A DNA stretch of 38,937 bases. It comes from Mogibacterium sp. (GTDB taxonomy: Bacteria; Bacillota; Clostridia; Peptostreptococcales; Anaerovoracaceae). Under the pieces are notes generated by a model that saw only the letters and a program-made list of their open reading frames with translations, was not told the origin of the DNA and ran no database searches. The position numbers were made by a program, and so were the translations under genes. Positions 10,038 to 38,803 of this stretch are shown piece after piece. Numbering within the stretch: the first letter of the stretch is position 1; every line of letters starts with the position of its first letter. The DNA is taken from assembly GCA_017431685.1 (NCBI GenBank), contig JAFRKO010000013.1:1-38937 (forward strand). The letters run 5' to 3'.

Positions 10038-10619
10038 TTATTCTTTATTAGCAGTAATCATTTTAAGGACTGTTGCCGGTACTCCGCCAACGATAACATT
10101 GGCAGGAACATCTCTGTTGACTACAGCTCCGGCAGCTATAACAGAGTTGTCGCCTATCGTTACCCCTTTTGTAATAACCACATTTGACCCGATCCATACC
10201 CTTTTGCCTATGTAAATTGGTGCCGGATACAGGATATGTCGCTTTTCCGGATCAATATCATGATCCAGTGTCGCCATAACGACATTATGTCCGACAAAGG
10301 TTTCATCACCTATGTATATACCACCCTGATCCTGAAACTTGCAGCCTGAGTTGATAAAAACATAGTCTCCTATAGCGATATTTTTTCCAAAGTCAGTGTA
10401 GAACGGCGGCTCTACTCTGAGACCTTTACCAACAGGTCTGCCTGTCATTTTCGAGAACAGCTCTGCTATTTCTGTTTCATCTTCATGCCAAACATTGTTG
10501 ATCTCGAAAAGAAATCTCCTTGTTTCCTGTATATGCTGCCTCATCGATAACACTATTTCAGGATCTTCTCCAAAGGGTTCTCCTTTGTCAAAGTGTTCCA
10601 ACAGTTCCTTAAGATCCAT
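10038..10619 (-). CDS. Sugar O-acetyltransferase (LacA/Maa family)
   Basis: This 193-aa enzyme would transfer acetyl from acetyl-CoA to a sugar or similar hydroxyl. It has the family's N-terminal helical cap and then a left-handed beta helix with hexapeptide repeats (IGDYVFINSGCKFQDQGG, IYIGKRVWIGSNVVITKG, IGDNSVIAAGAVVNRDVP). The catalytic His lies in ATLDHDIDPEKR. The ATG at 10619 was chosen because GGAGG is 10 bases upstream; the first in-frame ATG (10628) is only one base from GGAGG. It is the last gene of the accessory block. The natural substrate is unknown. Confidence 0.85.
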   Translation of the reverse strand: MDLKELLEHFDKGEPFGEDPEIVLSMRQHIQETRRFLFEINNVWHEDETEIAELFSKMTGRPVGKGLRVEPPFYTDFGKNIAIGDYVFINSGCKFQDQGGIYIGDETFVGHNVVMATLDHDIDPEKRHILYPAPIYIGKRVWIGSNVVITKGVTIGDNSVIAAGAVVNRDVPANVIVGGVPATVLKMITANKE

Positions 10620-10642
10620 ATTGTTCATACCTCCGCATCATG

Positions 10643-11227
10643 TCATCTTGTAAATCTTACGATATATGCACCAAGAACCTGCCTGCATGGAATTGCAGCT
10701 GCATTTTCTGCTGTGAGGTCAGCCTTTTCATATTCATGTTCAACGTCTTCGCGAAACGCCGGTAGTGTTTTTCCTATGCTGACACCATGTGCATCGCCTT
10801 CATTAAAATGCCAGGCAAATTCACAGTCGCAGAATTCCTTATTATTGGCGATTACTTCAGCTTCTCTGAATGCCTCGCTGCCTGACAAGAAGAAGCATCC
10901 GTCATTATCTTTCTCTGCAGGGCATCCGCCCTCTATGCCAACACCTGTATATATGAGTGTCAGAAATGGAGAAACGATTCTGACAGTCTTGCCTGTTCTT
11001 TCAAAAGATATGTCATCTTTTGAACTGTCCCAATTATCTATGTTGATCCATCCTCGCTTGCCGTAAGCCCGTACAGGAGTATTGAATTCCACGTAGACTT
11101 CTTTTTCATCTCTGATCTCAGCATTGATCCGAAGTACCGGCCGAAGGGACTCAAAACTATCAGGCAACATTGCCCTTAGTCTGTCCTGCTCTGCTCCATA
11201 TGCCATTACAAACTGCTCGATCTGCAT
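10643..11227 (-). CDS. Conserved hypothetical protein (194 aa)
   Basis: This soluble, beta-rich protein starts MQIEQFVMAYGAEQDRLRAM and contains VLRINAEIRDEKEVYVEFNT, ISFERTGKTVRIVSP and TGVGIEGGCPAEKDNDGCFF. I have the impression of a family widespread in Clostridia but cannot name it with confidence; an acetoacetate decarboxylase-like fold is a guess. The ATG at 11227 has GGAGAAG four bases upstream; a TTG five codons earlier is unlikely. It lies 23 bases before the acetyltransferase and 15 bases after the nuclease-like gene. Confidence 0.75.
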   Translation of the reverse strand: MQIEQFVMAYGAEQDRLRAMLPDSFESLRPVLRINAEIRDEKEVYVEFNTPVRAYGKRGWINIDNWDSSKDDISFERTGKTVRIVSPFLTLIYTGVGIEGGCPAEKDNDGCFFLSGSEAFREAEVIANNKEFCDCEFAWHFNEGDAHGVSIGKTLPAFREDVEHEYEKADLTAENAAAIPCRQVLGAYIVRFTR

Positions 11228-20200: not shown

Positions 20201-21394
20201 GAAGGTCGGATTCTGGCCGTTTATCCTGCCGTGTTCATCAGTTACAAAGTGCCATGTCCTGAGAGCTCCGTCAGCTGCCTTTGCTCCTCTCAGCATGACT
20301 TCCTGTGAATTCAGTCTGTCATAGTAGCTGAACTTATATACAGCTCCCTTCAGAGTGGCATCTCCCTCACCATGATCATGCGGATATCCGACAGGATTCT
20401 TAGTGAGAAGCAGTTCCACCAGATCAGTTATAGGTTCATCCTTGGCTGTAAAGGTCGTTGTTTCCTCAGATACGATCTTCACAGTGTATGTCTCAGGATC
20501 CTTAGCATACCCCGGAGGAGCATATGTCTCCTTGACTGTATATGTGCCTTCCATCAGATCGACGGTGTTGCTCTCTCCATTGGCATTCAGTGTCAGGGTG
20601 CCAGCTGCAGCACCGTTCTTGTCATAAGCGGTATACTGAGCCCCTTCAAGTGAATAGCAGTTGTTCCCATCAGTAATGGATGTGCGGTTTGAGACCTTCT
20701 TCATGTTGAGGTGTCCGGGAGCCTCCAGATATCCGACTACCATGTCCTGTACTCCATCCATATAGCAGATGAAGATCTTGAAGCTTTCAGGAACTGCTTC
20801 ATCGAAGTCTGCGTTTGTGTCGTAGAGTGCATTGGCGAGAGCCTTCGCTCTTGTCCACACATCACCGCAGGCAGAAGCGTGAGTACCTCCCCAGGTCGCC
20901 ATGTCGTTAGGCCTTCCGGCATATACATAGGCCAGGGCCAGATGAGCTACACCATAATCCTTTGCTTCATCACCGTAGTAGAACTGCTTTATTCCCTCGA
21001 TGTTTTTCTTGAAGCCCGGATACGAAGGCGAGTAGTACACGATGTTTCTGAGCGCGTTCCACTTGCCGGTATCGGTAGCGTCAGTGACCACCTTATCTAC
21101 CTGCACTGTTCTGGTCTGATCTCCTGACCACACAGGGGAGTTTTTATTCGGCTGCACGCAGATGGAAAAGCGGCTTCCGAGATCATCTCCGAGGTCGCAC
21201 TTGGCTGCGTTGCTGTAGCCTCCTTCACCCGGGCCGTAGTGCAGTTCCTTGTACCAGTGGACCGTATACTTGCTGCCCACTTTGCCGCTGAAAGCGCTTG
21301 CAGTCTCAGTCATCACAGTTCCAAGCATCATGATGAGTGCAAGCGTAATGGCGAACACTCTCGTGAACGCCTTGAAATACTTGTTGTCTGTCAT
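17225..21394 (-). CDS. LPXTG-anchored SpaA/VaFE-repeat surface adhesin
   Basis: This 1389-aa protein is exported and covalently attached to the cell wall. It has a signal peptide (hydrophobic core 13-28, cleavage near ETASA, 30-34). A VaFE-type N-terminal head follows (about 38-220, SICVQPNKNSP with Cys-79), then several SpaA/Cna-B domains (for example 243-310, 330-430, 480-560). Two VaFE repeats contain TVVFEKVF and LVAFETVY (about 925-1010 and 1210-1300). A PPKTG sorting signal at 1343-1347 precedes a membrane segment and a basic tail. The Lys and Asn/Glu pairs of Cna-B domains form intramolecular isopeptide bonds. AAAGGAG precedes the ATG. No sortase is seen nearby, so a host sortase must anchor it. 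It probably mediates mating contact or host adhesion. Confidence 0.93.
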   Translation of the reverse strand: MTDNKYFKAFTRVFAITLALIMMLGTVMTETASAFSGKVGSKYTVHWYKELHYGPGEGGYSNAAKCDLGDDLGSRFSICVQPNKNSPVWSGDQTRTVQVDKVVTDATDTGKWNALRNIVYYSPSYPGFKKNIEGIKQFYYGDEAKDYGVAHLALAYVYAGRPNDMATWGGTHASACGDVWTRAKALANALYDTNADFDEAVPESFKIFICYMDGVQDMVVGYLEAPGHLNMKKVSNRTSITDGNNCYSLEGAQYTAYDKNGAAAGTLTLNANGESNTVDLMEGTYTVKETYAPPGYAKDPETYTVKIVSEETTTFTAKDEPITDLVELLLTKNPVGYPHDHGEGDATLKGAVYKFSYYDRLNSQEVMLRGAKAADGALRTWHFVTDEHGRINGQNPTFADGFTSDALYKDKDGKVCYPLGTYLIQEVKAPEGYLVNDEILEVTITEDGTDNLHVKTYNEKIKGDDTIIRGGVKLAKIDNDLDEAYAQGDATLKGAEFTIYNQSNETVMVKGKEIGKGEAALVITTNADGIATSGDHDLPYGSYLMKETKPSKGYLLNEKWSRAFRIREDGVIVDLTEDKVREAVIRGGVQIIKRDKELVKSEALGGAHLDGIVMTIKNVSGRDVVARKDFGDPEVKVDWKKLESKKDLFEDGTVLRVPTGKDVGKITVHWNEEKKAYTAETLADDLPYGTYTIRESKTNESYQRTDKTEHMFTIREDGVIVSFDDNEHEAALTFDDYVYRSDVQGTKIADSTSERFSYVPFKIISVTNGETHVVVTDANGFLSTKDRRATGDLDEDEDADTARKQNPFDDLLEAEDIKTADLEKRKDDILHGVWFGTGEFGDKAAMNSKFGALPYDSYILEEMPCEHNEGYILQKFYFTVDQKSQNGFVDLETITDDVPEIGTTASVNGENKDIRPQKEITLVDVIEYKNLKKGETYTAKGILMDKATGQPVLDINGKQITAEQEFKTFMSNGKVKVTFTFDATSFYGKETVVFEKVFDREGHVAATHEEIDDEGQTVTWEHMQPAYEMYKIRTTKAPSKGDKFGFFAQDEVEYEVHVENTGNIALTMDVSDQFTQNPEYFTVPKLKDVTFDGEGTWNNKGKDEFIANITLEPGEKAVATYTAVVSDDAKEYLAAAAKDSDSKDAKGNDINREYQKNKPDDHDGYWNTAKCDNVTYPNPDNPDEPDTLEPKDDVAQTPVQKPEIGTSLADGAGKKTVAAAKDTQLIDTITYKALDPSKWYVFEGTLMVKDTGDPLVEHGHEVTVWSEPFQPKRPNGSAKISFIIDTTNLDGKELVAFETVYRVNDYKEGEELSKFTVTKVAEHKDLRDEGQTVKVSREAKRVPPKTGDNNMLWLYGGLFAAAMASMLALVAKEYARKRKQDKEDAEMFA

Positions 21395-26474: not shown

Positions 26475-26482
26475 AATGGAAT

Positions 26483-26944
26483 ATGTCAGAGCTGGGGGAA
26501 CTATCTGCGGAAAATGGCGAAACGGAATTCTCCCACATACCGGACTGGTATGAGTGGGAGCGTTCATGTGTCAGGAGTGAAGTCGAAGCGGGAACTTACA
26601 ACAGCGGAGAACTTTGTGTGACCGTGGACAGTCTGCCGAACGCGCTTGGATTTATCCGGCTCGGCGAAGGCATTCTCGTCCACAATATGGATGGTTTTGT
26701 CGTCCGCGGGATCGACCGTGACGGAGATGAATTTCTGATGGAAAAAGACGTGCCTTCCCTCTATTCCTACCACATCGAGTACGACTATCTGGGCAAGCAC
26801 GGTGACTGCGTCGACCTCAATACGCTTGAAGACATCTGGTACATCTTCCCGCATGGGACAGATTTCTCCGTGACCAAGATGGCGCTTGCAACCGAAGAAC
26901 TCTATCAGCACTACTGGCGGCAGAAGAAGGATCCGCTAAGCTGA
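26483..26944 (+). pseudogene. C-terminal remnant of a lysophospholipid acyltransferase-like gene
   Basis: The 153-aa frame contains IPDWYEWERSCVRSEVEAGT, LPNALGFIRLGEGILVHNMD, and YLGKHGDCVDLNTLEDIWYI, then PHGTDFSVTKMALATEELYQ. From memory this matches the C-terminal extension of Clostridia proteins annotated as 1-acyl-glycerol-3-phosphate acyltransferase. The PlsC catalytic part (HxxxxD) is absent: an in-frame stop lies three codons before the first ATG, and the tandem terminators are just upstream. I infer that the 5' half was lost at the element junction. A stand-alone small protein is the alternative. G+C content is higher than in the A+T-rich junction DNA next to it. Confidence 0.55.
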
Positions 26945-27003
26945 TCCCCCAATATGTCCGGAACATCTACAATAGATTATTAACTTCGGTTCCTCTTCTC
27001 ATC

Positions 27004-27037
27004 GAAAACAGCAACGAGCTTTAAAGCTGCGTTTTAT
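27004..27037. terminator. Bidirectional terminator between convergent genes
   Basis: AACG-AGC and GCT-g-CGTT pair around TTTAAA, with an A-run on one side and a T-run on the other. It lies between the plus-strand remnant and the minus-strand hydrolase and overlaps the latter's stop codon. Confidence 0.5.
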
Positions 27038-27987
27038 TCCATGATCCTTTCTGCGAATGCTCCGACTACTGCGTTGAATTCAACAGGCCTTTCGCGGGAA
27101 GCGTTGTGGCCGCATCCCGGAAGTACGCAGATCTCGCCATTTGGCGTCATCGAATTGTACAAGCTGGCAGCCTCCGGAGTTCCGCTGTCGTACTGTCCGC
27201 AGATATAGAGGATCGGGATTTTGATGCTGCTCAGAAGCACTGTTGAATCATGCCCCTTCAAGGTTCCTGTGCAAGAGAATTCCGATGGACCCCACATATA
27301 GTTGTAGACTGATAACCCCGTGATCGTATGCTGCGATTCCGGATCAGCCGGTGTACCGTCATTTGCTCCCGCTACCCGGCTATTGAAATTAGCGGAATAT
27401 ATCTCATTGACCATTGCATATCTTGGATCATCCTCGAAAATACCCGATTCCTCGCATTCACGAACGATCTGCCAATATTCCTCGCCTTTGTCCAGAGACT
27501 TGATCAGCCTCTCAGCATCACTGCACCACTGATCAACATTGAGGAACGGTCCATCCAGTACTATACCCTTGAGCCCTTTTGGCTGCCTGGCTGCAGCATA
27601 CTCAACAGCAAGCATTGTTCCCCATGAACGGGCAACAATCATAAACTCAGCGAAATCAAAGAAGTCTATTACAGTCTGGACTTCATTGACGAAATGGTCT
27701 ATTGTCAGATACTGTCTGGCTTCTTCTGAAGTAGTGATATTATCAGCGAAACCAGACCCTTTGCTACCAAGCTGGTTATAAATCACGACCGGATGTTTTT
27801 CGGCAAGTGCAGTCTGCTTGAAGAAGCATAGTCCCGTACTGCCTGGCCCGCCATGAAGGAAAACAATCGGAATTCCGGGTTTCCCTTTGCCATAGTAATG
27901 GTAGAAAACACTACCACCTTCAACGGGAATGAATCCCTCTTCCTGCCCTTCAGGCCACCCTTTGCTGTAAATAGTCTCATTATCCAT
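27034..27987 (-). CDS. Proline iminopeptidase-like alpha/beta hydrolase
   Basis: This 317-aa serine hydrolase would remove N-terminal proline or act on related small amides. The oxyanion segment is FLHGGPGSTG (about 44-53). The nucleophile elbow is ARSWGTM, with the catalytic Ser after Arg. The acid is probably Asp in ICGQYDSGTP and the base His in GCGHNASRE. The usual first Gly of the elbow is Ala here, and DQxGxGxS is changed to NQLGSKGSG, so substrate range may differ. GAGGATATGATTT precedes the ATG. It lies downstream of the DUF6092 gene (about 20 bases). Confidence 0.85.
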   Translation of the reverse strand: MDNETIYSKGWPEGQEEGFIPVEGGSVFYHYYGKGKPGIPIVFLHGGPGSTGLCFFKQTALAEKHPVVIYNQLGSKGSGFADNITTSEEARQYLTIDHFVNEVQTVIDFFDFAEFMIVARSWGTMLAVEYAAARQPKGLKGIVLDGPFLNVDQWCSDAERLIKSLDKGEEYWQIVRECEESGIFEDDPRYAMVNEIYSANFNSRVAGANDGTPADPESQHTITGLSVYNYMWGPSEFSCTGTLKGHDSTVLLSSIKIPILYICGQYDSGTPEAASLYNSMTPNGEICVLPGCGHNASRERPVEFNAVVGAFAERIME

Positions 27988-28006
27988 AAATCATATCCTC
28001 AATTAT

Positions 28007-28270
28007 TTATAGCAGATCCACTGTCTTTTCTACTACTCTGTTAAGCATTTCCGCAAACGCGTCAGGAGATGTAGAGTATCTACCCTTATTCTCTTCAATA
28101 TCATCCGCGATCGCTCTTAAAACAGCATTATCCGGATCCTGTTTAAGCATATACTCTGTGAGTTTCTGCGCAGCTGTTATCATTCTGAGCGGCCCGTAAT
28201 TTGCAGGTTCATCGGTAAGCCCCGCAGCGCTGGTCGCCATGTAAATCAACAATTCAGTAAGCCCGTCCAT
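28007..28270 (-). CDS. DUF6092-like small protein
   Basis: This 87-aa helical protein (MDGLTELLIYMATSAAGLTD, then EPANYGPLRMITAAQKLTEY) fits the DUF6092 pattern (SA-x-L-x-x-EP-x-x-YGP-x-R). Function unknown. Its ATG shares a base with the nitroreductase stop (TGATG), so translation is coupled and a functional link to that enzyme is likely. Confidence 0.65.
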   Translation of the reverse strand: MDGLTELLIYMATSAAGLTDEPANYGPLRMITAAQKLTEYMLKQDPDNAVLRAIADDIEENKGRYSTSPDAFAEMLNRVVEKTVDLL

Positions 28271-28809
28271 CACTTGCCCTCCGTATCACTGGTATTCCAT
28301 CCATTCCACTGCAGGATCTGATCAAGATCCTTTCTTTTGCGCTCTCTGGGTTCCCCATCAGGGTATCCAACAGAAATCAGGATCTCGATACGAAGTGTAT
28401 CCGGAATTCCAAGAAGTTTGCGAACCGCTCCATCATTGTAACTCTTAATCACACACGTTCCAAGGCCGAACTCGAGCGCCTGCAGAATAATATTCTCAGC
28501 TGCCATGGAAGCATCCATCATACAGCCATATTCAATGCTGTTCTTGCTGCCTTTACTGGCTACTTCTTCAAGATCACTGGCAATGACAATGATTGCGGTT
28601 GGTTTGCCGCTCATCCCGGGACAGTAAAGATCCAGCTTTCTTACCAGATTCTGGTTATCTGCAACGATAAATCTCCAGAACTGTGCGTTGCTTGCGGACG
28701 GGGCCAGCGCACCCGCACGGATAAGCGACAGAAGGATCGATCTGTCGACCGTCTGCGAAGTGAATTTGCGTATACTTCGTCTTTCTTCGATTGCTTTAGA
28801 AATCTTCAT
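28270..28809 (-). CDS. Nitroreductase family flavoprotein
   Basis: This 179-aa protein shows the FMN-binding family pattern: MKISKAIEERRSIRKFTSQT (Arg cluster), LIRAGALAPSASNAQFWRFI, and AENIILQALEFGLGTCVIKS, then ISVGYPDGEPRERKR. These dimeric enzymes reduce nitro, quinone or enone groups with NAD(P)H. GAAAGGATATATAAAT precedes the ATG. It forms a pair with the DUF6092 gene and lies downstream of the AEC transporter with a 57-base gap that holds a short A+T-rich hairpin (GAAAAAGC/GCTTTTTT type). Confidence 0.88.
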   Translation of the reverse strand: MKISKAIEERRSIRKFTSQTVDRSILLSLIRAGALAPSASNAQFWRFIVADNQNLVRKLDLYCPGMSGKPTAIIVIASDLEEVASKGSKNSIEYGCMMDASMAAENIILQALEFGLGTCVIKSYNDGAVRKLLGIPDTLRIEILISVGYPDGEPRERKRKDLDQILQWNGWNTSDTEGK

Positions 28810-28865
28810 ATTTATATATCCTTTCTATCGAAAAATGAAGAAAAAAAGCCATGCTTTTTCGCCTT

Positions 28866-29813
28866 CTATACAAATGTGATCAGAACGAACAACAGCGGAA
28901 TGCTCAGAAGGCACCCGGTCGTCGTTAAGAACACGTTCGTCGCTGCATATTCAAGATCAAGATGATATTGCTCAGCCAGAACGCAGCTGATGGTAAAGGT
29001 CGGGGATCCGGCAATCAGCATGAGGATTATGCTTTCGGTCTCAGGCATAAACCTCGAAGTGACGAGATAGACGACGAACGGTACCACGATGAGTTTGCTT
29101 ATAGTGAGAATAGATGAATTTTTTATAGTAGTAAGATTCCCCTTCTCCATATAGCAGATGACAGCGCCTACGTAGATCAGGCCCAGGCAAAGGCTTGCAT
29201 TCCCCAGTTCATCGCTGACAGCCAGAAAAGGCTCAGGCAACCTGACAGAAAGCGAGTTCAGGATCAGCATGCCTACAATGGCAACCATGATCGGATTTAT
29301 GAACTTCTTGCCAATAATTGCCAGTTTGGATCTTCCGCCATTGTCGACTCCCTGAGAGAAGAATGAAAGCGCCAGAGTCCATGCTGTAAGCGTATCTACA
29401 GCGGAGCAGACAGGGATATACTGCTGTCCATCCTCGGGCGTGAAAAGTGTCATGATAAGAGGAAGCACGATAAAAGCGTAATTGCCTCCTACCATGCTTC
29501 CACGATGAACATTGCCGGATCTATGATCGAGTCTTAGAAGCTTACTTACCAGAACTCCAGTCAATGCAAGCAGAAAATAGCCAAAAAGCTGCCATCCGAC
29601 CATCCTGCGAAACTCAAGCAGATCCATCACAGACGTAGCTTGCTGGTTCATTATCGATATGATAAGAAGCGACATCGCAACATTGATCAGGAGTCCTGAC
29701 AAAGTTGGCAGGCCTTCTTTTTTGATTACCCCGAGCTTCGAGACCACGAAACCGATCGCGATGAGGATAAGGAACCTCAGAAGCTTGGGGATAAGTATCA
29801 TCAGATAATCCAT
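28866..29813 (-). CDS. AEC family transporter (auxin efflux carrier-like)
   Basis: This 315-aa membrane protein has about ten hydrophobic segments in two halves, starting MDYLMILIPKLLRFLILIAI. It contains the family's Asn/Pro-rich crossover features (GGNYAFIVLPLIMTLF and GSPTFTISCVLAEQYHLD). AEC proteins move small organic acids, often malate or amino-acid-derived anions. AGGGAAA precedes the chosen ATG; longer forms overlap the racemase gene and lack a membrane-protein start. As last gene of the peptide cluster it may export or import an end product. Confidence 0.85.
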   Translation of the reverse strand: MDYLMILIPKLLRFLILIAIGFVVSKLGVIKKEGLPTLSGLLINVAMSLLIISIMNQQATSVMDLLEFRRMVGWQLFGYFLLALTGVLVSKLLRLDHRSGNVHRGSMVGGNYAFIVLPLIMTLFTPEDGQQYIPVCSAVDTLTAWTLALSFFSQGVDNGGRSKLAIIGKKFINPIMVAIVGMLILNSLSVRLPEPFLAVSDELGNASLCLGLIYVGAVICYMEKGNLTTIKNSSILTISKLIVVPFVVYLVTSRFMPETESIILMLIAGSPTFTISCVLAEQYHLDLEYAATNVFLTTTGCLLSIPLLFVLITFV

Positions 29814-29832
29814 TTTGATTTCCCTGGTCTCT

Positions 29833-30522
29833 TCAGTCCCCTGTATTTCTGTATTTCTTACGAATGAGTTCGTGATATGCAAAAGCACCCTCCGCGATGA
29901 CCGGATCGACCACAGGCAGTCCTGTCTCACGTTCTATCAGACCGGCTATGCCTATCGTAGACATGCCTGTACATGCAAGAGCGATGACACCGCAGCCGGC
30001 TTCTTTGATCCTGCGCGCACACTCCAGCACACCCCTCTTGCCCTCATCGGAAAGAAGATCAAGAGTACTGTTTACTTGGTTTATCTTTTCATACAAAGCG
30101 ATCTTGCCCTCGGCATTGCTAAGATATGCTCTGGGCGGTCTGTCCGTGATCCCGATCACGCCGATCCTGCTGCTGTACCGAAGTGCCATGGCTACAGTCG
30201 TCTCTCCCCCGCCAGCAACAGGCAATTCAGGCATTTCTTCCCTGATCATATCTACTGCCGGATCATCAGCACAGCTAACAAGGATCATGTCCTTATCTGC
30301 AAAGCCCTGCGCTGCTTCTACTATCTTAGGCAGTGCCTTAGCAAGCGTCTCATCGTCATGTATGCCTTCCCATTGATCAGGTATGCAGATGCTTTCAACA
30401 TTGATTCCGGGATAGTTTTCCATGATAAGACGACCATGCGTATCCACAAAGTATTGATCGTTGCTTGTGAGCACGCGGATCAGCCCCACATCAAGGCTCG
30501 CATCAAGTCTCTTATTGTTCAT
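29833..30522 (-). CDS. Asp/Glu/hydantoin racemase-like protein
   Basis: This 229-aa protein has the two-domain racemase fold with paired cysteines. The first lies in MILVSCADDPAVDMI and the second in GVIALACTGMSTIGIAG, where Asp/Glu racemases and hydantoin racemases carry their two catalytic Cys. It includes AGGGETTVAMALRYSSRIGV and LPVVDPVIAEGAFA, which resemble hydantoin racemase. It would invert an alpha-carbon without cofactor. The ATG lies inside the end of the preceding NicX-like gene (11-base overlap), so the two are coupled. Substrate unknown. Confidence 0.8.
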   Translation of the reverse strand: MNNKRLDASLDVGLIRVLTSNDQYFVDTHGRLIMENYPGINVESICIPDQWEGIHDDETLAKALPKIVEAAQGFADKDMILVSCADDPAVDMIREEMPELPVAGGGETTVAMALRYSSRIGVIGITDRPPRAYLSNAEGKIALYEKINQVNSTLDLLSDEGKRGVLECARRIKEAGCGVIALACTGMSTIGIAGLIERETGLPVVDPVIAEGAFAYHELIRKKYRNTGD

Positions 30523-31459
30523 ATACAAAATCCCCATCCTTTATTACCAGAAGATCATCAAGATAAAGAGTCGGTTTCAGCACGATCCCGTCCATATGAC
30601 AGTCGGCCTTATTGATTCCACCGAAAGAAGCATTCGTGCCAAATGCGACATGTACGGTGCCGTAAACTTTTTCGTCCTCCAGAATGATTCCGTTCAGAAT
30701 GGCCGCATCGTTAGTTCCAATCCCAAGCTCAGCCACAGTTCGATTGTTGTCATTCGCCAGCAGGATGTCCAGTTTGTCTGCATCCTCACCTTCGATAGAC
30801 TCTATCTTTCCATTCCTGATCACAAAATGAAGCGGAGATGATAGCTTTCCAACTCCTACCATAGAGCCATCAACAAGCAAATCGCCGTTCACACCATCCT
30901 CGAGAGGCGCTATATATCCCTCGCCCGATGGGAGATTCCCGCATTTTCCAGGCTCTCTATATACACCTGGACTTGCTACGCCGCGGCGGCCTTTAAGATC
31001 CAAAGTAAGCTTATATCCGTCCTTGAGAATGGTTGCTGTATCTGCATTTGTAAGCAATTCGGTGACTTTATCCGTCAGTGCTTCGACCCTGGAATAGTCC
31101 GCTGTCATGGCGCCGTTACCAAACATCTCTTCAGTAATTCCAGGCATCGTGGCAACTCTGACCCCCTTAGCCTGCGCGGCGATCTTTGCATTGGTATGTG
31201 TGATCGATTTTGCAGTAGGCGCAAGTACAACATCGGCTGCCAGCATTGCCTGTGCTACACATTCAAGCGGCTCCTCACCTGAGACCTTGCCCTCCGGCAT
31301 CAGCATAAGCACCGACTCATTACCTAAAGATCTGGCACTTTCATATAATGCAGTGCCTATTGGAAGTTTTGCGTCATCAGTAACGATAAGAACCTTCTCT
31401 CCAGGTCTAAGACCCATACACCCTGTCAGAATATTCCTGCCGATCTCTTTTAATTCCAT
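30512..31459 (-). CDS. NicX/M29-family metalloprotein, copy 1
   Basis: This 315-aa protein belongs to the group that contains aminopeptidase T (peptidase M29) and 2,5-dihydroxypyridine dioxygenase NicX. It has MGLRPGEKVLIVTDD near the start, GRRGVASPGVYREPGKCGNL in the middle and GTVHVAFGTN...CHMDGIVLKPTL at the end. His-270, His-288 and Asp-290 look like the 2-His-1-Asp metal triad known from NicX. Function could be peptide-bond cleavage or ring opening. AAGGAAACAATT precedes the ATG. It lies between DUF1177 and the racemase gene. Confidence 0.8.
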   Translation of the reverse strand: MELKEIGRNILTGCMGLRPGEKVLIVTDDAKLPIGTALYESARSLGNESVLMLMPEGKVSGEEPLECVAQAMLAADVVLAPTAKSITHTNAKIAAQAKGVRVATMPGITEEMFGNGAMTADYSRVEALTDKVTELLTNADTATILKDGYKLTLDLKGRRGVASPGVYREPGKCGNLPSGEGYIAPLEDGVNGDLLVDGSMVGVGKLSSPLHFVIRNGKIESIEGEDADKLDILLANDNNRTVAELGIGTNDAAILNGIILEDEKVYGTVHVAFGTNASFGGINKADCHMDGIVLKPTLYLDDLLVIKDGDFVYEQ

Positions 31460-31501
31460 AATTGTTTCCTTTTATCCTCGACTAATTATCTTTATTTCCT
31501 T

Positions 31502-32446
31502 CTATTCTCTGCCCTTGGTCTGCAGATGCTTCATTGAGCCATACTTATGTACGATCTTCTCGTACTCTTCTTTGTCGTAGAACTGACATTCCCCGCGGCC
31601 GAATGATTTTGCGACCTCAAGCATGAATCTCGCTGCCTCCTCAACATCGCATATATGAGTAGCGCCTGTTGCACAGCCCGGGACCGGCATCTCGGTCGTG
31701 ATAGCTACTCCTACGACCGGGGCAGGTGTTGCCGTGCAAGGCTGCAGCACGGAATTCAGATGGTAAAGGTCATTGCCATAAGGCGTAATATCCTGAGTGG
31801 TCAACGGGAAAACATAAGGCAGCCTTCCTGTCGTGATCTGCATGATATCCAGCAGATCTTCAGAAGTTTTGAGTATGTAGCCTTCCTTGACAGTTGGTGA
31901 AATCGCAAAACCACGTGTATTGATAACGCGGTTTCCCTTGGTCGTATCAACGGAAAGGATCGCGTCAAGATCATCAGACACTTCCTCTTTGTTGACCTGC
32001 GCGATCTCAACAGGTGATCCCATGAAAGCGACAGGCTTGTGAGGCTGAGTCGGGGCTACCGGGCAAATGTGCGTGGAAATCAGCACATCACCTTCAAGCG
32101 CATCGCCCTTCTTTCTCATATCCAGGATCTTTGCAGCGATCGCAAGAGCACACAGAGCGCCATCACCATCTGATACAAAGCCTATTCTTTCAGGTCTTGC
32201 GCCGATCCCCCCAAGACGCCCGAGAAGACCGATGGTTGGCGCTTCGCCCCCTACTGTCTTCCCTTTGGTTCCCGGGATACGGATCTTGATCATGTCAGTT
32301 TTTCCGTCACCATTTTCACCCTTTAATTCATATACGTCAATATCCGCATCCGGATCAATGACGCGCAGATACTCTTCCATCGCAGCACCGTTCGCATAGA
32401 TGCTGTCAAGGATATCGTATATTTCCAGGATCTGTTTCATCAACAT
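31502..32446 (-). CDS. DUF1177 family protein
   Basis: This 314-aa soluble protein matches DUF1177: MLMKQILEIYDILDSIYANG, then GEAPTIGLLGRLGGIGARPE, ISTHICPVAPTQPHKPVAFM, and GVAITTEMPVPGCATGATHI. The His and Asp residues in STHICP, FVSDGDGA and GATHICDVEE could bind a metal, and the layout recalls M20/M42-type peptidases, but I have no proof of activity. AAGGAG lies nine bases upstream. It follows the PepV gene after a strong hairpin. Confidence 0.82.
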   Translation of the reverse strand: MLMKQILEIYDILDSIYANGAAMEEYLRVIDPDADIDVYELKGENGDGKTDMIKIRIPGTKGKTVGGEAPTIGLLGRLGGIGARPERIGFVSDGDGALCALAIAAKILDMRKKGDALEGDVLISTHICPVAPTQPHKPVAFMGSPVEIAQVNKEEVSDDLDAILSVDTTKGNRVINTRGFAISPTVKEGYILKTSEDLLDIMQITTGRLPYVFPLTTQDITPYGNDLYHLNSVLQPCTATPAPVVGVAITTEMPVPGCATGATHICDVEEAARFMLEVAKSFGRGECQFYDKEEYEKIVHKYGSMKHLQTKGRE

Positions 32447-32482
32447 GATATTTTCTCCTTATGATTGCTTGAATAAAATAGG

Positions 32483-32528
32483 AAAACCCGGAGACCCAGA
32501 GTTTTTATGGGTTTTCTGTATCTCCGGG
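32483..32528 (-). terminator. Strong hairpin between pepV and DUF1177 genes
   Basis: CCCGGAG pairs with CTCCGGG, and ACCCA with TGGGT inside it, giving a long stem. On the minus strand it is followed by TTTTCCTATTTT. It could end some transcripts after pepV or lower expression of the downstream genes. Confidence 0.7.
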
Positions 32529-32538
32529 CCGATTGAAA

Positions 32539-33930
32539 TCACACTTCCGGTCTTAACAGTGCATACAATGCCTGCGCATACAGTTTCGATGCCATAATGA
32601 ATTCTTTGATGCCGATGAACTCATTTGCTTCATGGGCCAGTTCCTTTTCATAAGGAAAAACAGGTCCGAACGATACGAAGTTAGTGACATCACGACAGTA
32701 GGTGCCTCCGCCGATCGTGATAGCTTCAGCTTTTTCACCAGTCATCTCGTTATATACTCCCAGCAGAGTTTCGACCAAAGGTGCTTCCTTAGGTATATAA
32801 AGAGGTGGTCTCATCTGCCAGTACACAGGATGGAATCCATATTTCTGACAGTTTATATCTGTCGTTTTCCATATCTGTTCAAGGTCTATATGAACAGGAC
32901 AACGAAGATCGACCTTCAGTTCAGATATTCCGTTCTCAAACCGGATGACTCCCAGGTTCATGGTAAGTTTCCCCGAAAGCTGGTCCTCACAGGCTATACC
33001 GATATTCTTTCCTTCCCATCCATCAGCATAAAGTGAATCGAGCGAAGTAAAGAATTTCTTTGCGTCATCGCTGAGGCCATTGACATCTTTCATGAATGCC
33101 AGCATAGGCAGTATCGCGTTCTTCCCGAGCCATGGCTGCATAGAATGCGCACTGACTCCGGTGAATGAAAGCACCAGAGCTCCGTCTTCCCATGCATGCT
33201 CTCCACCAAAGCTGTCCGCTACTTCCTGCAAAGCCTCTTTGCTCCCTTTCAGCCAGACTTTAGCCAGATTCGGAACTGCATTCACTACTGTCCCCCCAAC
33301 AATCTTTTTGACGATTACAGCTGTTCCATCAGCCTGTTCTACAGGATGAGTTATAGTGTAACGGATTATGCCTTTTTCAGCATGGATCACCGGAAAACTA
33401 CCATCCGGAGAGAATCCTATGTCCGGACACTTCTCTTTAGTCAGATAATACTTGATGCACTCATGACCGGTCTCTTCATTGCAGCCGATTATGTGGTTGA
33501 TATGACCATCCAGCTCAAGCCCGCTCTCCTTAATAGCTTTCATGGCATACATTGCTGATATGAGCGGTCCTTTGTCATCAACCGTTCCCCTGCCATACAT
33601 CCTGCCATCCTTGATAACAGGATCAAACGGATCAGTGAGCCAGTTATCGTCGACCGGTACTACATCAGCATGGCAAAGCATACCGACCTCACGGCCGCTG
33701 CTTCCATATCTGACGGAAGCGGCATAACCGTCATAATCCTTCGCCTCGAAACCGAGTTCCTCTGAAATTTTGATGACCTCGTCCAGTACATCCCGGGCTC
33801 CTTGCCCGAAGGGGGCGCCTGGGCCGGCTGTGTCAGGATCAAAGATGCTCGGGATCCTGACCAGCCTTTTGAGGTCCGCTATCATATCTTCCTGATAGCT
33901 TTCAATCAAATCGTTTAATTTTTTTTCCAT
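32539..33930 (-). CDS. pepV: PepV-type M20 dipeptidase
   Basis: This 463-aa metallopeptidase cleaves dipeptides. Zinc ligands are visible: LCHADVVP (His and Asp, about 88-90), GRGTVDDKGP (bridging Asp and neighbour), GCNEETGHE (catalytic Glu pair), FSPDGSFP (Asp) and ELAHEANE (terminal His). The middle holds the dimerisation/lid domain as in PepV/Sapep. AAGGCAATTTATA precedes the ATG at 33930; a longer frame upstream overlaps the NicX-like gene and is unlikely. In this cluster it would complete hydrolysis of imported peptides in the cytosol. Confidence 0.93.
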   Translation of the reverse strand: MEKKLNDLIESYQEDMIADLKRLVRIPSIFDPDTAGPGAPFGQGARDVLDEVIKISEELGFEAKDYDGYAASVRYGSSGREVGMLCHADVVPVDDNWLTDPFDPVIKDGRMYGRGTVDDKGPLISAMYAMKAIKESGLELDGHINHIIGCNEETGHECIKYYLTKEKCPDIGFSPDGSFPVIHAEKGIIRYTITHPVEQADGTAVIVKKIVGGTVVNAVPNLAKVWLKGSKEALQEVADSFGGEHAWEDGALVLSFTGVSAHSMQPWLGKNAILPMLAFMKDVNGLSDDAKKFFTSLDSLYADGWEGKNIGIACEDQLSGKLTMNLGVIRFENGISELKVDLRCPVHIDLEQIWKTTDINCQKYGFHPVYWQMRPPLYIPKEAPLVETLLGVYNEMTGEKAEAITIGGGTYCRDVTNFVSFGPVFPYEKELAHEANEFIGIKEFIMASKLYAQALYALLRPEV

Positions 33931-33952
33931 TATAAATTGCCTTGGTACCTGA

Positions 33953-35026
33953 TCAGTCTTCGTATCCAGGCAGGCCCATCTTTCTGCAGAACTCTCTTGC
34001 CTTAGGATCAAGATATACACCATCCTGCTCGAAGACTACTCCGTCAAAGATGAGTGTCGGCTTTACGATAGTTCCATCTGTGTGGCTCGGAGCATCCCAC
34101 TTCTCGCCCATAATAGCCGCGCCCTGACTTCCGATTCCGAATTCAGCTCCGCCGAATACACGCTCGTCCTCTACTATCCTGCCTGTAGGAGCCTTGACTC
34201 CAGGATTGAATCCCAGCGAATAATGAGCAAGTCTGTAAGATTCCGGACAATTGAATGATGCCATCCACTCAGCAAGTCTCTGAGCTTCCTTGCCTCCCTC
34301 GATATTGGTAACTACACCATTTTCAAGAGTCAGCTTGATAGGTTCATTAAGTTTGCACAGATCTGCAGGTGGCCAGATAGCGCCGTCGAAGACAAGCGTT
34401 CCGTTGATAGTAGATTCAAGCGGGCACCATGAGATCTGTCCACCGAGCATATATGGATATCCGTCGACACAGTATTTCTGTCCTGAGTGACGGACTTTTC
34501 TGCCACTCTCATATGCAACGAGGTCTGTGCCGTTTGCAGATTTGATCTCGATCTTATCTACTTTCTCGATGGTCGCTTTGAGATATTCGCCGAATTCTAC
34601 CATCGCGTCATATTTGACATTTGCAACACATCTTACAAGCATGTCTACATCGATACCTGTCAGGCACATGTAGCGTACTCTTCCATGCGCAATGACTTTC
34701 TGCCAGGACGGTGTATGCTGTACCGTCTGATAAGCGCACTCAAGCCATACATCGGCTTCCATAGCTGCTTCCTGGATCATTGTAGGCGGATCCATCAGTG
34801 AGAGTGGTGCCGTAGGGTATGTCGCTGTCACCGGTATGCAGTCAAGTGCATAAGCAGCTGCCGCAAAAGCATCCATTACACGCTTATCCGAAGATGTATC
34901 ACCAGTGATGAGTACATTAAGTCCCGGTTTGACAAGCATTACATCGCGTAAGAGAACCATAGCGCCCTTGAATGTTTCCAGCTGCAAGTACTCGTCTCTT
35001 GCTTCAAAACCCAGATTGAGTTCCAT
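33953..35026 (-). CDS. NicX/M29-family metalloprotein, copy 2
   Basis: This 357-aa protein shares the plan of copy 1 (LVKPGLNVLITGDTSSDKRV early; VFGGAEFGIGSQG and SHTDGTIVKPTLIFDGV late) but is longer at both ends. His-315 and Asp-317 of the metal triad are kept, but the first His, which in copy 1 lies in GTVHVAFG, is replaced here (GGAEFG). It may use another ligand, bind a different substrate or be a partner subunit. AGGAGG precedes the ATG. It lies 22 bases before the pepV start and 58 bases after the transporter. Confidence 0.8.
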   Translation of the reverse strand: MELNLGFEARDEYLQLETFKGAMVLLRDVMLVKPGLNVLITGDTSSDKRVMDAFAAAAYALDCIPVTATYPTAPLSLMDPPTMIQEAAMEADVWLECAYQTVQHTPSWQKVIAHGRVRYMCLTGIDVDMLVRCVANVKYDAMVEFGEYLKATIEKVDKIEIKSANGTDLVAYESGRKVRHSGQKYCVDGYPYMLGGQISWCPLESTINGTLVFDGAIWPPADLCKLNEPIKLTLENGVVTNIEGGKEAQRLAEWMASFNCPESYRLAHYSLGFNPGVKAPTGRIVEDERVFGGAEFGIGSQGAAIMGEKWDAPSHTDGTIVKPTLIFDGVVFEQDGVYLDPKAREFCRKMGLPGYED

Positions 35027-35084
35027 TAATAGTGCCTCCTTTTTTTCTTCTATCGATTTATTTTGAATTATTTATATAAAATTT

Positions 35085-36683
35085 TTACTTCTTCAAGGAT
35101 TTGCCAAGTGCCAATGTTGAAGAGAAGAAGCTGTACAGCGCTGAACCTGCGATAGAGCCTGCCGCGAGTATGTACATGATGCTCTGTCCCTTCTCGCCCT
35201 TCCACTTGATCACGATGACTCTTATGATAAGAGCTGCTATAGTAGTGATACCTGTTATCGTGCTTCCTACCAGAAGACCTGTTGCAAGGAGTACTCCGAG
35301 CTGTTTGTTAGGGCCTCCTATGAACTGGATGATCGCACCCGGTACAGCCCAGATCACGAGCCACTTAGCGATTTCCGGTGAAGAACCTGCTTCAATAGTT
35401 GTAAGGAACGTACGTGATACAGGAGCGAACAGATCAGCTGCGAAATATGTCTTATAAACAACTGCCACAACGATCATAGCTACTACGAATGAGATGACCT
35501 CTGAAATATATTGTTGCTTACGTCCTTCTTTCTCAAATTCAGGATCTTCTCCGCCTCCTCTGAGGATATATCCGCACTTGAGGTCATAAGCCATATCTGA
35601 GAATGCAGGTCCTGTCGCTGATGTATAACCTGCAAGAATCGCAAGGCCAAGTGGCGGGAATCCTGCAAGCATACCTACGATCAGGAAGATAAGAGCGGTT
35701 GCGAATCCAGGGAACCATCCGGAGTGCATGGCTGCCATACCGATGATCAGTTCTGATGCGATAGCTGCAAACGCTGCGTAAAGTACCCAGAATACGAACT
35801 GCAGGAATCCCATCTGCTGGAAGAAGCCGCAGAATATTGCAAGTACAAGAGCTACTGCAACGTATGCTCCGTAACCGCCAAAGATAGCCTTCTTCATATC
35901 CTTCATGCTGGATGTGAACTTGCCTGCTACAGAGTCGCTTCCGCTGTCCTTCTTGAACAGCATCATGAATACCTGAATAAGAGCTACAAGGCCGGCACCG
36001 ATCATGATTCCGTGCGGTACGTAGTACTGACCCATTGGGAATCCAAAGTCATTAGAAAGACCAATCGCAAGAGCACCTACGCCGAATGCGCTGAGTGCCC
36101 AGATGTCGCCGATCCAGGCTACGCCGAGGATATCCATCGGGATCCCGAATAAAGCTTTGCCGGCAACGCCGCCGGCAATACCAACCAGCAGCAGGAAGGC
36201 ATGCTTTGTTTGTCCAGCGCAAGCCTTGATCGTCTCAGCGGCTGCTACTCCAGGAGGCCACGGCTCTGCTGCAGGGAACATTTCAGTATCGAATGTCTTA
36301 TATAAGATGGTTGCGTCTATGATGGATGCAATCGTGGCACCTACAAGCATCGGGACTACAAGTCCCGGTTCTCCGAGCAGGAACGGGATGCCAATTGCAA
36401 GGATCAAAGAGTTTGCTGTACAGAATGTAGCGCCCGAAATATTAGTCTGTACGAGATTCTGGACGTTGATATCTTTGAATTTCTTAAAGATACTTACCGG
36501 TATCCTTGAAATAATGATCGCAAACAGCGCGCCGATAATCGACGTATTCGTACTGATACCAATACGAACGATAACCTCAAGACCGATAATCGAGCCAAGA
36601 ACAGCAAGTATTATATTGAGTATGAGAACACTCGGATCCAACGCTTTAGGATGTTGCCTTAGGTTCTTTTCATTTTCGTTCAT
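35085..36683 (-). CDS. OPT family oligopeptide transporter
   Basis: This 532-aa protein has about 13-15 membrane segments and OPT-type features: NLVQTNISGATFCTANSLIL, EPWPPGVAAAETIKA, and GLSNDFGFPMGQYYVPHGIM, then FIGGPNKQLGVLLATG. Bacterial OPT members import peptides or related compounds using the ion gradient. GGAAGGAG lies eight bases before the ATG at 36683. It is the second gene after aroM and the entry point of the pathway. The length is short compared with yeast OPTs but normal for bacteria. Confidence 0.9.
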   Translation of the reverse strand: MNENEKNLRQHPKALDPSVLILNIILAVLGSIIGLEVIVRIGISTNTSIIGALFAIIISRIPVSIFKKFKDINVQNLVQTNISGATFCTANSLILAIGIPFLLGEPGLVVPMLVGATIASIIDATILYKTFDTEMFPAAEPWPPGVAAAETIKACAGQTKHAFLLLVGIAGGVAGKALFGIPMDILGVAWIGDIWALSAFGVGALAIGLSNDFGFPMGQYYVPHGIMIGAGLVALIQVFMMLFKKDSGSDSVAGKFTSSMKDMKKAIFGGYGAYVAVALVLAIFCGFFQQMGFLQFVFWVLYAAFAAIASELIIGMAAMHSGWFPGFATALIFLIVGMLAGFPPLGLAILAGYTSATGPAFSDMAYDLKCGYILRGGGEDPEFEKEGRKQQYISEVISFVVAMIVVAVVYKTYFAADLFAPVSRTFLTTIEAGSSPEIAKWLVIWAVPGAIIQFIGGPNKQLGVLLATGLLVGSTITGITTIAALIIRVIVIKWKGEKGQSIMYILAAGSIAGSALYSFFSSTLALGKSLKK

Positions 36684-36713
36684 TTTCTTTACTCCTTCCC
36701 ACAAATCTACCTG

Positions 36714-37388
36714 TCACTGTAATCCGGCTATAACTTCACAAGCAGTTCTTGCAAGGACTGTCCTGCAAAGCAAGACCGGCAGACCTGTTGCTTTTGCAAC
36801 GATCTCTTTGGCTTTGACGGAGAAACCGATGCAGTCCATGACCACAAGATCAGCCTCTACGTCTTTTGCTTTTGCCGCAGCCTCCTCGACCTCAGACATC
36901 GGTCCGTAAGGATTAGCAGCGAATGGATATATTTCATCCATTACCGGCCCCCAGTGTCTGTACGCCTGTGAGAGCTGCTGCTCATCAGGCGTGATAACTA
37001 TGAGCCTTTTGCGTGGTGTCAGTGCAGCGGCAAGTCCATCAAGGACTTTGCCCGGATATATCACAGGCACTCGCGCTTTGAAAAGAGGGAACTCGCCGGC
37101 ACACATGACCATAATCACTGCGGCTCCCTGCTCCTCTAATGCAGTCACGCATTGCTGCATACGCTCTGCTATATACGATTCGCTGAATTTTGCAAAAGAT
37201 CCATCATTCAGTCTTGATACGAGGAAATAGTCCCCTTCTCTAGGCACCATGGCAGCGATATCCTCCTTGCTCAATCCGTCTAATGCCCCCATTTGCAGCA
37301 GTTCGACTTCGTCACCGATTATTGGCATAATATCCGGTGTCACATCGACTCTTGGAGATTGACCGATAGTTACAGCCCCGATTTTCAT
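36714..37388 (-). CDS. AroM family protein
   Basis: This 224-aa protein matches AroM: MKIGAVTIGQSPRVDVTPDI, QMGALDGLSKEDIAAMVP, and ARTACEVIAG near the end. It has two Cys at racemase-like places (IMVMCAGEFPLF and VVMDCIGFSVKAKE), so an isomerase role of the Asp/Glu racemase type is possible. In E. coli the aroM product has no firm function. AGGAGG precedes the ATG. It heads the catabolic operon, opposite the LysR gene. Confidence 0.85.
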   Translation of the reverse strand: MKIGAVTIGQSPRVDVTPDIMPIIGDEVELLQMGALDGLSKEDIAAMVPREGDYFLVSRLNDGSFAKFSESYIAERMQQCVTALEEQGAAVIMVMCAGEFPLFKARVPVIYPGKVLDGLAAALTPRKRLIVITPDEQQLSQAYRHWGPVMDEIYPFAANPYGPMSEVEEAAAKAKDVEADLVVMDCIGFSVKAKEIVAKATGLPVLLCRTVLARTACEVIAGLQ

Positions 37389-37483
37389 CTAATCCACCTC
37401 CTCTGTTTCTAAGATGTATTGTATGCCTAAATGAACAATATCACCATTCTTCCATAAATGAAAATTTTAAATATTTTGCGATC

Positions 37484-37500
37484 TATAAAATTATGTTATA
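37484..37500. promoter_or_regulatory. Candidate LysR-binding dyad
   Basis: TATAA-N7-TTATA forms a 17-bp inverted repeat with the T-N11-A form expected of LysR-type sites. Outer arms ATCTAT/ATAGAT extend it. It lies in the 199-base gap between aroM and lysR. A possible -10 for aroM (TACAAT) is on the minus strand near 37424. Confidence 0.5.
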
Positions 37501-37587
37501 CTCATAGATGAAGAGTTGCCTTTTTTGACCGAATGGTCTGTTATCTGAGTTTGAAAACATATGAATTATATGAAAGCGAGGCGCAAA

Positions 37588-38499
37588 ATGATCGATTACA
37601 GGACCGAAACATTCATGACTCTTTGCGGGACGAGAAGCTACACACAGACAGCAAACATTCTGAATATCACGCAGCCTGCGGTATCCCAGCATATACGTTT
37701 TCTTGAGAATCATTATGGTGTGAAATTAGTAGAATACAAGGGGAAGCAGCTATATCTCACCCCTGAAGGAGAGTTTCTGAGAAGAGAACTTAGCAAGATC
37801 ATTTCACTTTCGAAAAGTGTCGAGAAGCGAATAGCTGAAATCGAAGGATCAGATAAATACAAGAAAGTAGTTTTTGCTTCGAATATGACTATGGGTGAAT
37901 ATCTGCTGCCTAAGATGGTATCTGACTATATGAAGCTCCATCCGGATTACCGTATCTGTTCATATATTGCATCAGGTAAAGAGATGCGCCAGCTGATAAG
38001 TGAGGGGGAAATTGATTACGCGATTGTAGATATATATGCTGTGCCGGACGGCATGGAAAAGGAATTATTTATTCAGGATTACCTCAGATGCGTCTGCAAC
38101 CCTGCCCACCCTCTCGCGGGTAAAACGGCTTCACTCAAAGAGCTGATCAAGGAGAATGTTATTTCCCGCGAGCATAATGCTGCAGCTAATAACGTTATCA
38201 GCCAGGTATTTGCAAGGCATGGGTTTGACTGGAACAAATTCAAAGTAGAGATCGAGGCAGGCAGTATGCTGGCCATAGAAGAATATCTGCATGAAATCGA
38301 AGCGATATCATTCATATATGAGATTGCTGCAGCCAGAGCTACACAGCACGGCCAGGTCTCACGAATAGAAGTTCCGGAGCTGACAGATCCTATCGACTAC
38401 TTCTTCGTGTACCCGGACAAAAGCTGCCTCTCCGAAGAAGCTGCCAATTTCATGAATTACTGCAAAGAATACGCAGATAAACAAATGCAAATGCTGTAG
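37588..38499 (+). CDS. LysR family transcriptional regulator
   Basis: This 303-aa regulator has the winged helix (MIDYRTETFMTLCGTRSYTQ, then TANILNITQPAVSQHIRFLE), a linker helix, and a substrate-binding domain with two subdomains from about residue 90. It is the only plus-strand gene in this part and diverges from aroM, so it probably senses the cluster's substrate. The ATG at 37588 follows GCGAGG by about seven bases; an upstream ATG at 37561 lacks a ribosome site. The ligand is unknown. Confidence 0.92.
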   Translation: MIDYRTETFMTLCGTRSYTQTANILNITQPAVSQHIRFLENHYGVKLVEYKGKQLYLTPEGEFLRRELSKIISLSKSVEKRIAEIEGSDKYKKVVFASNMTMGEYLLPKMVSDYMKLHPDYRICSYIASGKEMRQLISEGEIDYAIVDIYAVPDGMEKELFIQDYLRCVCNPAHPLAGKTASLKELIKENVISREHNAAANNVISQVFARHGFDWNKFKVEIEAGSMLAIEEYLHEIEAISFIYEIAAARATQHGQVSRIEVPELTDPIDYFFVYPDKSCLSEEAANFMNYCKEYADKQMQML

Positions 38500-38803
38500 G
38501 CAACGGCCATCCTACTTTTTTTGACAGTTCTATCTTACAGATATACTTAGAGAGATCGTCGATGATGTATTGAATTCTCTTATCTGTATTATTCATACTG
38601 TTAGTTTTGTATTACGTTTCAGATACGAGAAAACTCTGGACTTGCTGAAGAGCAATCACGTTTGTAAAATCATATGTCAGCATTCTTTCTGTTTTATCTG
38701 CTTTTCTGTAATAGTTTCTGAATTAACATCAAACAATAGCAAAAGAAGACGGAAAACCTCTCTGTCATAAGATAATTATGAAAAAAAACCGGCCTCGTTA
38801 GGG
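38500..38803. other. Non-coding stretch, nothing recognised
   Basis: About 300 bases after lysR with no ORF that has a ribosome binding site or family pattern. A+T-rich. No terminator directly follows lysR. Confidence 0.5.

Follow-up and report, generated by a model that had tools for sequence, protein, structure and literature searches.

What kind of compound is handled by a gene run that joins an oligopeptide importer, peptidase-like proteins, two racemase-like proteins and a putative flavoenzyme of two subunits? This question is raised by a stretch of 38,937 nucleotides from Mogibacterium sp., a bacterium of gut type (contig JAFRKO010000013.1 of assembly GCA_017431685.1), which as a whole is called the window here and is contig C34 of a 2.74-Mb draft genome. 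Scans of its open reading frames (ORFs) against Pfam and NCBIfam gave eleven successive minus-strand genes from 37388 to 27034 and a divergent gene for a LysR-type regulator; the largest gap in the run is at most 92 nt, and two gene pairs overlap (Table 1). A preliminary description had named eight of these genes and the LysR gene, all of which are present at the positions it gave, but the run is longer than it had supposed: genes for CDOA-like, CDOB-like and proline-iminopeptidase-like proteins were missed. Here, we propose that the operon serves inducible catabolism of 2,5-diketopiperazines (cyclic dipeptides) or of closely similar dipeptides with a closed ring, a reading that we favor tentatively and rate just short of probable.

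Cyclodipeptide Oxidase-Like Subunits

Among solved structures, the CDOA-like protein matches best NdasCDO (9exv_A, E 3e-24), the cyclodipeptide oxidase (CDO) of Nocardiopsis dassonvillei (9EXV; PMC11760959), followed by AlbA (8uc3_A, E 2e-20) and, at the same E 2e-20, a plain nitroreductase (3g14_A). In our reading of its alignment with NdasCDO, the residues in contact with flavin mononucleotide (FMN), namely R28, R29, R32, S58, N59, S145 and R181, are retained, while the cysteine that binds FMN covalently (C115 in AlbA, C121 in NdasCDO) is absent, D99 being aligned to C115. The small partner belongs to PF19585, the CDOB family (PMC11055893). Its matches to the solved relatives 9exv_C and 8uc3_D are weak (E 0.003) and rank below those to three designed helical proteins. 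Residues E32, P33, Y36 and R40 of NdasCDO-B are named in PMC11760959, and the motif EPxxYxxxR is kept in 19/19 CDOB-like rows, which include L073 and L175, one and the same cut record, and L076 and L077, near-copies of the window operon. The pair is thus like NdasCDO and AlbAB (PMC11760959, PMC11055893) in that two subunits come from overlapping genes, with the Arg, Ser and Asn of FMN contact and the E-P-Y-R of CDOB kept, and unlike them in the missing FMN-linking Cys.

To which class does such a pair belong? A PF00881 gene and a PF19585 gene lie here in direct, overlapping succession, as expected of CDO-like enzymes outside cyclodipeptide synthase (CDPS) clusters. Because the covalent-FMN Cys, which PMC11055893 reports to be conserved only among CDOAs of CDPS clusters, is replaced by D99, the window pair is assigned, from its sequence, to the non-CDPS class of CDO-like enzymes. 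A search of the host genome for a CDPS gene gave no match, but absence of CDPS is not usable as an argument, since no control genome gave a match either. Two CDOA-like ORFs in other loci, L085 13141-14013 (290 aa) and L170 5294-6268 (324 aa), have no separate CDOB call and may be CDOA-CDOB fusions.

The presence of both CDO subunits in the run, with a characterized cyclodipeptide oxidase ranking first among the solved structures matched by CDOA, is a first reason for thinking of cyclic dipeptides. Could the run then make a modified cyclic dipeptide rather than break one down? A CDO and a racemase of the NozR type are tailoring enzymes of known diketopiperazine pathways (PMC11055893, PMC10156859), which speaks for a biosynthetic role. 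However, the run holds an importer and peptidases, and its CDOA lacks the Cys found in PMC11055893 only with CDPS clusters; biosynthesis or tailoring of a natural product is thus very unlikely.

Conservation of the Gene Set

Co-occurrence was counted in 398 genomes from the same phylum. DUF1177 is found in 46 of them and AroM in 45 at E <= 0.001 or 41 at E < 1e-10, the threshold used for the co-occurrence table, from which the four weaker matches are omitted. Both families are present in 36 genomes (Fisher p 1.3e-36, odds ratio 250). By a hand count from coordinates, the two genes are at most 5 kb apart in 28 of these 36 genomes, on separate contigs in seven and 43 kb apart in one.

DUF1177 genes and their surroundings, up to 20 kb per context, were collected from 45 DUF1177 genomes besides the host and from the 80 best among 586 or more encoding sites of a species-genome collection, the latter choice being biased to relatives of the window DUF1177. 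Neighbor families were assigned by profiles made from clusters found in the contexts, and L076, L077, L073 and L175 were dropped from the following counts. For the 68 contexts that reach 9 kb to each side, the numbers holding a family at 0-3, 3-6 and 6-9 kb from DUF1177 are 44, 1 and 0 for AroM, 29, 1 and 0 for M29, 29, 4 and 1 for DUF917, 24, 7 and 3 for RAC, and 19, 9 and 1 for OPT. Within 6 kb, nearly all share the strand of DUF1177 (AroM 45/45, M29 30/30, DUF917 35/37, RAC 30/31, OPT 26/28). A second count took the 82 contexts that extend 6 kb or more to each side, the window among them, and scored genes on the same strand within 9 kb: AroM was present in 55, the M29 types in 37, DUF917 in 37, RAC in 36, an M20 peptidase in 26 and a CDOA-like gene in six; 19 contexts have none of the core families. 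The gene set is therefore conserved as a unit, more than by chance, and the question of the preliminary description, whether DUF1177, AroM, M29-like and OPT genes recur together in other genomes, is answered positively. Its idea of peptide-type import also holds beyond the window: OPT is present in 33 of the 82 contexts, a dipeptide-type ATP-binding cassette (ABC) importer in 19, both in three and either in 49, so that the two importer types are interchangeable.

The CDO-like pair belongs to this set more loosely. PF19585 is found in 11/398 genomes, 4/46 with DUF1177 and 7/352 without it (p 0.03), a weak association at the genome level. Around nine CDO places without nearby DUF1177 (L166-L174), M29 or M29a occurs in seven, an ABC peptide importer in six, DUF917 in six and RAC in two, and this sharing of partners also argues for the cyclic dipeptide reading. 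We read these data as two overlapping modules that share the importer, M29 proteins, RAC, DUF917 and M20 peptidase; DUF1177 and AroM come on top in the first, the CDO-like pair in the second. The window would be a hybrid of both, without DUF917.

Related clusters also occur in cultured bacteria, such as Blautia caecimuris DSM 29492 (L084) and Blautia schinkii DSM 10518 (L090). Other proteins recur around DUF1177. A family of about 280 aa, formed by L046 8422-9282 and ten relatives, is present in 11 DUF1177 directons and immediately follows DUF1177 in six; its representative matches nothing in Pfam or NCBIfam. In L136 (1733-2758) and five other loci, a binding-protein family, of the NMT1/TAXI type by its representative, is encoded immediately upstream of DUF1177, possibly for a further type of importer. 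In one Alicyclobacillus contig (L145), five DUF917-profile matches share the strand of DUF1177 (9866-10816) and lie no more than 9 kb from it. Among 14 control genomes, only Haloferax volcanii and Sulfolobus acidocaldarius match DUF1177, and they are also the only two that match DUF917.

Racemase-Like Proteins and the Hydantoin Alternative

As had been proposed from the sequence, AroM and RAC have the two-Cys racemase fold. Hydantoin racemase 2eq5 is the best solved match for both, and two cysteines are invariant in each (C96/C186 in 79/79 rows of AroM, C89/C189 in 62/62 rows of RAC, near-copies included); it is to be noted that decarboxylases and maleate isomerases share this superfamily fold. 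NozR, of the same Asp/Glu-racemase superfamily, isomerizes diketopiperazines with two Cys in the nocardioazine pathway (PMC10156859). Since RAC and AroM keep the fold and both catalytic-type Cys, NozR lends weight to cyclic dipeptides as substrates, although it is a biosynthetic enzyme of an actinomycete and is likened here by description, the nearest solved structure of RAC being 2eq5.

The same match feeds the main rival reading, in which hydantoin- or thiohydantoin-type rings are catabolized, such as those that arise from carbamylated or thio-modified amino acids, RAC and AroM are hydantoin racemases, and the ring is opened partly by enzymes encoded elsewhere. Such substrates are proposed in PMC11055893. 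DUF917, which is (S-methyl) thiohydantoin desulfurase-like, accompanies DUF1177 as counted above; the DUF917 representative tested, however, scores 283 and 278 bits where the desulfurase cut-offs are 440 and 450. PucR-type regulators occur in 42 of 126 directons (L076 and L077 included), and an amidohydrolase lies in one flank of the L077 block. Neighbors outside the named families were also surveyed in directons with a core gene or SBP5, those of the window, L073, L076 and L077 being left out. A similar ORF in another locus exists for 59 proteins of 120 aa or more; two were dropped for frame length, and the 57 scanned include two matches to PF02133, the family of purine/allantoin permeases, and two to CN_hydrolase. 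Single hydantoinases may also be among them, because the results cover 25 of 80 matched families.

The host does encode a D-hydantoinase/dihydropyrimidinase that scores above cut-off, but it belongs to a selenium-dependent purine cluster on contig C28 (L205), together with ygeW, arcC, ygeY, xanthine dehydrogenase, yqeB, ygfK and ssnA. The location of the host's purine and hydantoin enzymes in a cluster of their own, on a different contig, is a further reason to prefer cyclic dipeptides for the run, whose importers and peptidases are of peptide type. Profile searches of the host genome found neither Hydantoinase_B (6/14 control genomes match) nor DUF917 (2/14). On balance, hydantoin-type rings are an unlikely substrate, though less so than those of the other rival readings. 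Degradation of purines or allantoin by the run was considered and rejected, as the eleven genes include no hydantoinase or allantoinase and the purine cluster lies elsewhere.

DUF1177, M29-Like Proteins and Peptidases

Which of the proteins could open a ring? DUF1177 has a predicted fold of zinc-aminopeptidase type, by which it would belong with the clan MH-like zinc exopeptidases. Residues D93, D95, H136, D167 and H229 are present in 68/68 rows, H126 in 66/68 and H264 in 61/68. The transferrin receptor, which is non-catalytic, also matches the fold, profile comparison gave no link in sequence to M42, and the DUF1177 profile against PDB gave one match at chance level (E 0.22).

The two M29-like proteins had been taken together as NicX/M29-type. 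They do belong to one superfamily with the aminopeptidases PepS, AmpS and AmpT and with NicX, although they are shorter and of low similarity, but they are of two kinds. In alignments with PepS, AmpS and NicX, M29b has E180, E244, H270, H288 and D290, invariant in 28/28, in the aminopeptidase ligand columns E, E, H, H, D, which we assume from AmpT. Its profile similarity is low (PepS E 8e-9, NicX E 1e-14). M29a has instead Q197, H268 and E295 in three of the five columns and thus departs from the E, E, H, H, D set, while H268, H315 and D317 stand at H265, H318 and D320 of NicX, presumably its metal ligands; H268 is aligned directly to 7cn3, and H315 and D317 via M29b.

This triad, the alignment of M29a to NicX (E 5e-9) and the fact that NicX is the best solved match also of M29b and its relatives are what speaks for cleavage of a pyridine or dihydropyridine ring by NicX-type dioxygenases, a substrate class that the preliminary description had listed and that finds no support beyond this likeness. 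NicX uses O2, whereas the genera nearest in the NicX-like gene are anaerobes; M29b has Glu in place of H265, and the Pfam and NCBIfam scans recognized no other pyridine enzyme among the eleven genes. As M29b has the aminopeptidase columns and only M29a the NicX triad, this is a weak rival, extremely unlikely in our judgment.

The dipeptidase of the preliminary description is supported, as a putative PepV-type M20 enzyme, by NCBIfam, with scores above cut-off for NF005591 and for the subfamily model TIGR01887 (430 bits, cut-off 208) and below it for TIGR01886 (333, cut-off 632). The protein at the end of the run stays below narrower iminopeptidase models, such as NF045945 (131 bits of 400). Are these enzymes simply meant for linear peptides with D-residues from cell walls or aged proteins, with the racemases acting on free or peptide-bound residues? 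OPT, PepV, the iminopeptidase-like gene and the ligand columns of M29b would fit, and two LD-carboxypeptidase-like (S66) proteins are among the 57 neighbors mentioned above. Uptake and degradation of linear peptides, however, leaves the CDO-like pair unexplained, M29a lacks three of five aminopeptidase ligand residues, and a cofactor-free two-Cys racemase should abstract the Calpha-H of a ring more easily; this reading is quite unlikely. Peptide-type importers, the aminopeptidase-type fold predicted for DUF1177 and two dipeptide-type peptidases in the run together are consistent with a cyclic dipeptide.

A Possible Route for Cyclic Dipeptides

The data on which a route can be built are gene identities, conservation of the unit, co-occurrence, predicted folds and catalytic residues; the substrate, the order of steps, the ring-opening enzyme and the cargo and direction of AEC are what we infer. 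LysR would sense the compound, and OPT would import the small peptide-like ring. RAC and AroM may then invert its Calpha stereocentres by two-Cys proton transfer, so that all stereoisomers could reach the form accepted by the hydrolase. The CDO-like flavoenzyme would introduce or remove a ring double bond between Calpha and Cbeta. Opening of the ring would fall to a metal-dependent hydrolase, DUF1177 and/or M29b being the first choice and M29a a possible one, and the linear dipeptide would be cleaved by PepV and the proline-iminopeptidase-like enzyme. Finally, AEC may move an organic-acid product.

Table 1. The gene run, its divergent regulator and the shared block in the window. Starts of the OPT, PepV and AEC genes are our reading of the upstream sequence (OPT start ATG 36683).
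Feature	Position	Strand	Basis
Divergent LysR-type regulator	37561-38499	+	PF03466 E 3e-28, PF00126 E 3e-15
AroM, racemase-superfamily protein with Cys96 and Cys186	36714-37388	-	PF07302 E 2e-76; 256.5 bits, cut-off 23.8
OPT-family oligopeptide importer	35085-36683	-	PF03169 E 6e-20, residues 228-531 only
M29a, M29/NicX superfamily	33953-35026	-	no Pfam match; NicX 7cn3 E 5e-9
PepV-type M20 dipeptidase	32539-33930	-	NF005591 449 bits, cut-off 435
DUF1177, predicted zinc-aminopeptidase fold	31502-32446	-	PF06675 E 2e-138; 460 bits, cut-off 25; profile 5-272 of 272
M29b, M29-like	30512-31459	-	PF02073 E 8e-10
RAC, hydantoin/Asp/Glu racemase family, Cys89 and Cys189	29833-30537	-	PF01177 E 3e-22; 2eq5 E 1e-55
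AEC-type membrane carrier, putative organic-acid transport	28866-29813	-	PF03547 E 1e-19
CDOA-like nitroreductase-fold subunit, cyclodipeptide-oxidase-like	28270-28809	-	PF00881 E 2e-27
CDOB-like subunit, 88 aa	28007-28273	-	PF19585 E 1.5e-23; 4-nt overlap with CDOA
Proline-iminopeptidase-like alpha/beta hydrolase	27034-27987	-	TIGR01250 192 bits, cut-off 168; 19-nt gap
Shared block	26655-38542, outer limits 26477-38583	.	L076 3733-15660; L077 3774-15838

Limits and Mobility of the Unit

How far does the unit extend? A block of about 12 kb, comprising the operon and LysR, recurs with 98.9-99.1% nucleotide identity in L076 and L077, which come from a collection described as having one genome per species. 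Beyond the block, to the left or to the right, no similarity was found among the three contigs. The rpoB region of the L076 genome is 84-85% identical to that of the window genome; rpoB was not found in the L077 genome. With a block so nearly identical, unlike flanks and rpoB regions that far apart, recent horizontal transfer of the unit is the simplest reading of the comparison, and it speaks for counting the CDO-like pair, the iminopeptidase-like gene and LysR as parts of the unit. L076 and L077 are titled metagenome-assembled genomes, so that an error of binning or assembly may be behind the likeness. A promoter scan found 14 sites against 22 expected from shuffles, and terminator-like sites number 21 against 9.8 expected.

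Genes for an IS21-type IstB protein and for a GntP permease are present in flanks of L076 and L077. Elsewhere in the window, 368-23462 resembles an integrative conjugative element, with genes for a reverse transcriptase, a type IV secretion coupling protein, a relaxase, a Toprim protein, a radical SAM protein and ParB, and 17225-21394 encodes an adhesin-like surface protein of 1389 aa that has T-Q ester and SpaA-type domains and matches a thioester domain slightly below cut-off. The rpoB region is found on both host contigs C33 and C64, 100% identical over 5130 nt, which may come from assembly duplication or contamination.

Relation to Described Systems and Outlook

The preliminary description knew of no pathway with this membership, which is only partly right, because much of the membership is described outside CDPS clusters: PMC11055893 (Nat Commun 2024) has AroM, PF01177 racemases, DUF917, OPT and peptidases around CDO genes, suggested there to serve hydantoin/allantoin or secondary metabolism. 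The window shares with these clusters CDOA (PF00881) and CDOB (PF19585), a PF01177 racemase, AroM, OPT and peptidases, and anaerobes are among the hosts there (Blautia, Clostridium, Thermococcus); it differs in that no DUF917 was found in its genome, and in DUF1177 and aminopeptidases, which the main text of that paper does not mention. Breakdown of diketopiperazines has been drawn as the action of a ring hydrolase followed by a dipeptidase (PMC3852281), a scheme that the run resembles, although the sections consulted present no gene cluster. Open-access literature, taken without supplements, gave no report of genes for cyclic-dipeptide catabolism, and no paper on the function of DUF1177 was found there, the word itself occurring in a paper on fungal DUF1996. 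New here are the DUF1177 core and its predicted fold, the two M29 subtypes, the interchangeable importers, the separate purine/hydantoin cluster of the host and the 12-kb block of 99% identity.

What would this mean beyond one Mogibacterium? Cyclic dipeptides occur widely, in organisms and in foods, while the enzymes that open them were said to be unclear (PMC3852281). It might be possible, though we consider it rather doubtful, that a widespread mix-and-match system, mostly of anaerobes, takes up cyclic dipeptides whatever their stereochemistry and degrades them. In it, DUF1177 would be a new cyclic-dipeptide hydrolase with a zinc-peptidase fold, AroM and RAC would epimerize diketopiperazines, and the CDO-like enzyme would act as an O2-independent dehydrogenase or, in reverse, as an enamide reductase. 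If so, at least 586 DUF1177-encoding places in one species-genome collection, many with partner genes, would become candidates, AroM and DUF1177, families without known role, would gain testable roles, and CDO-like enzymes outside biosynthesis would get a catabolic meaning.

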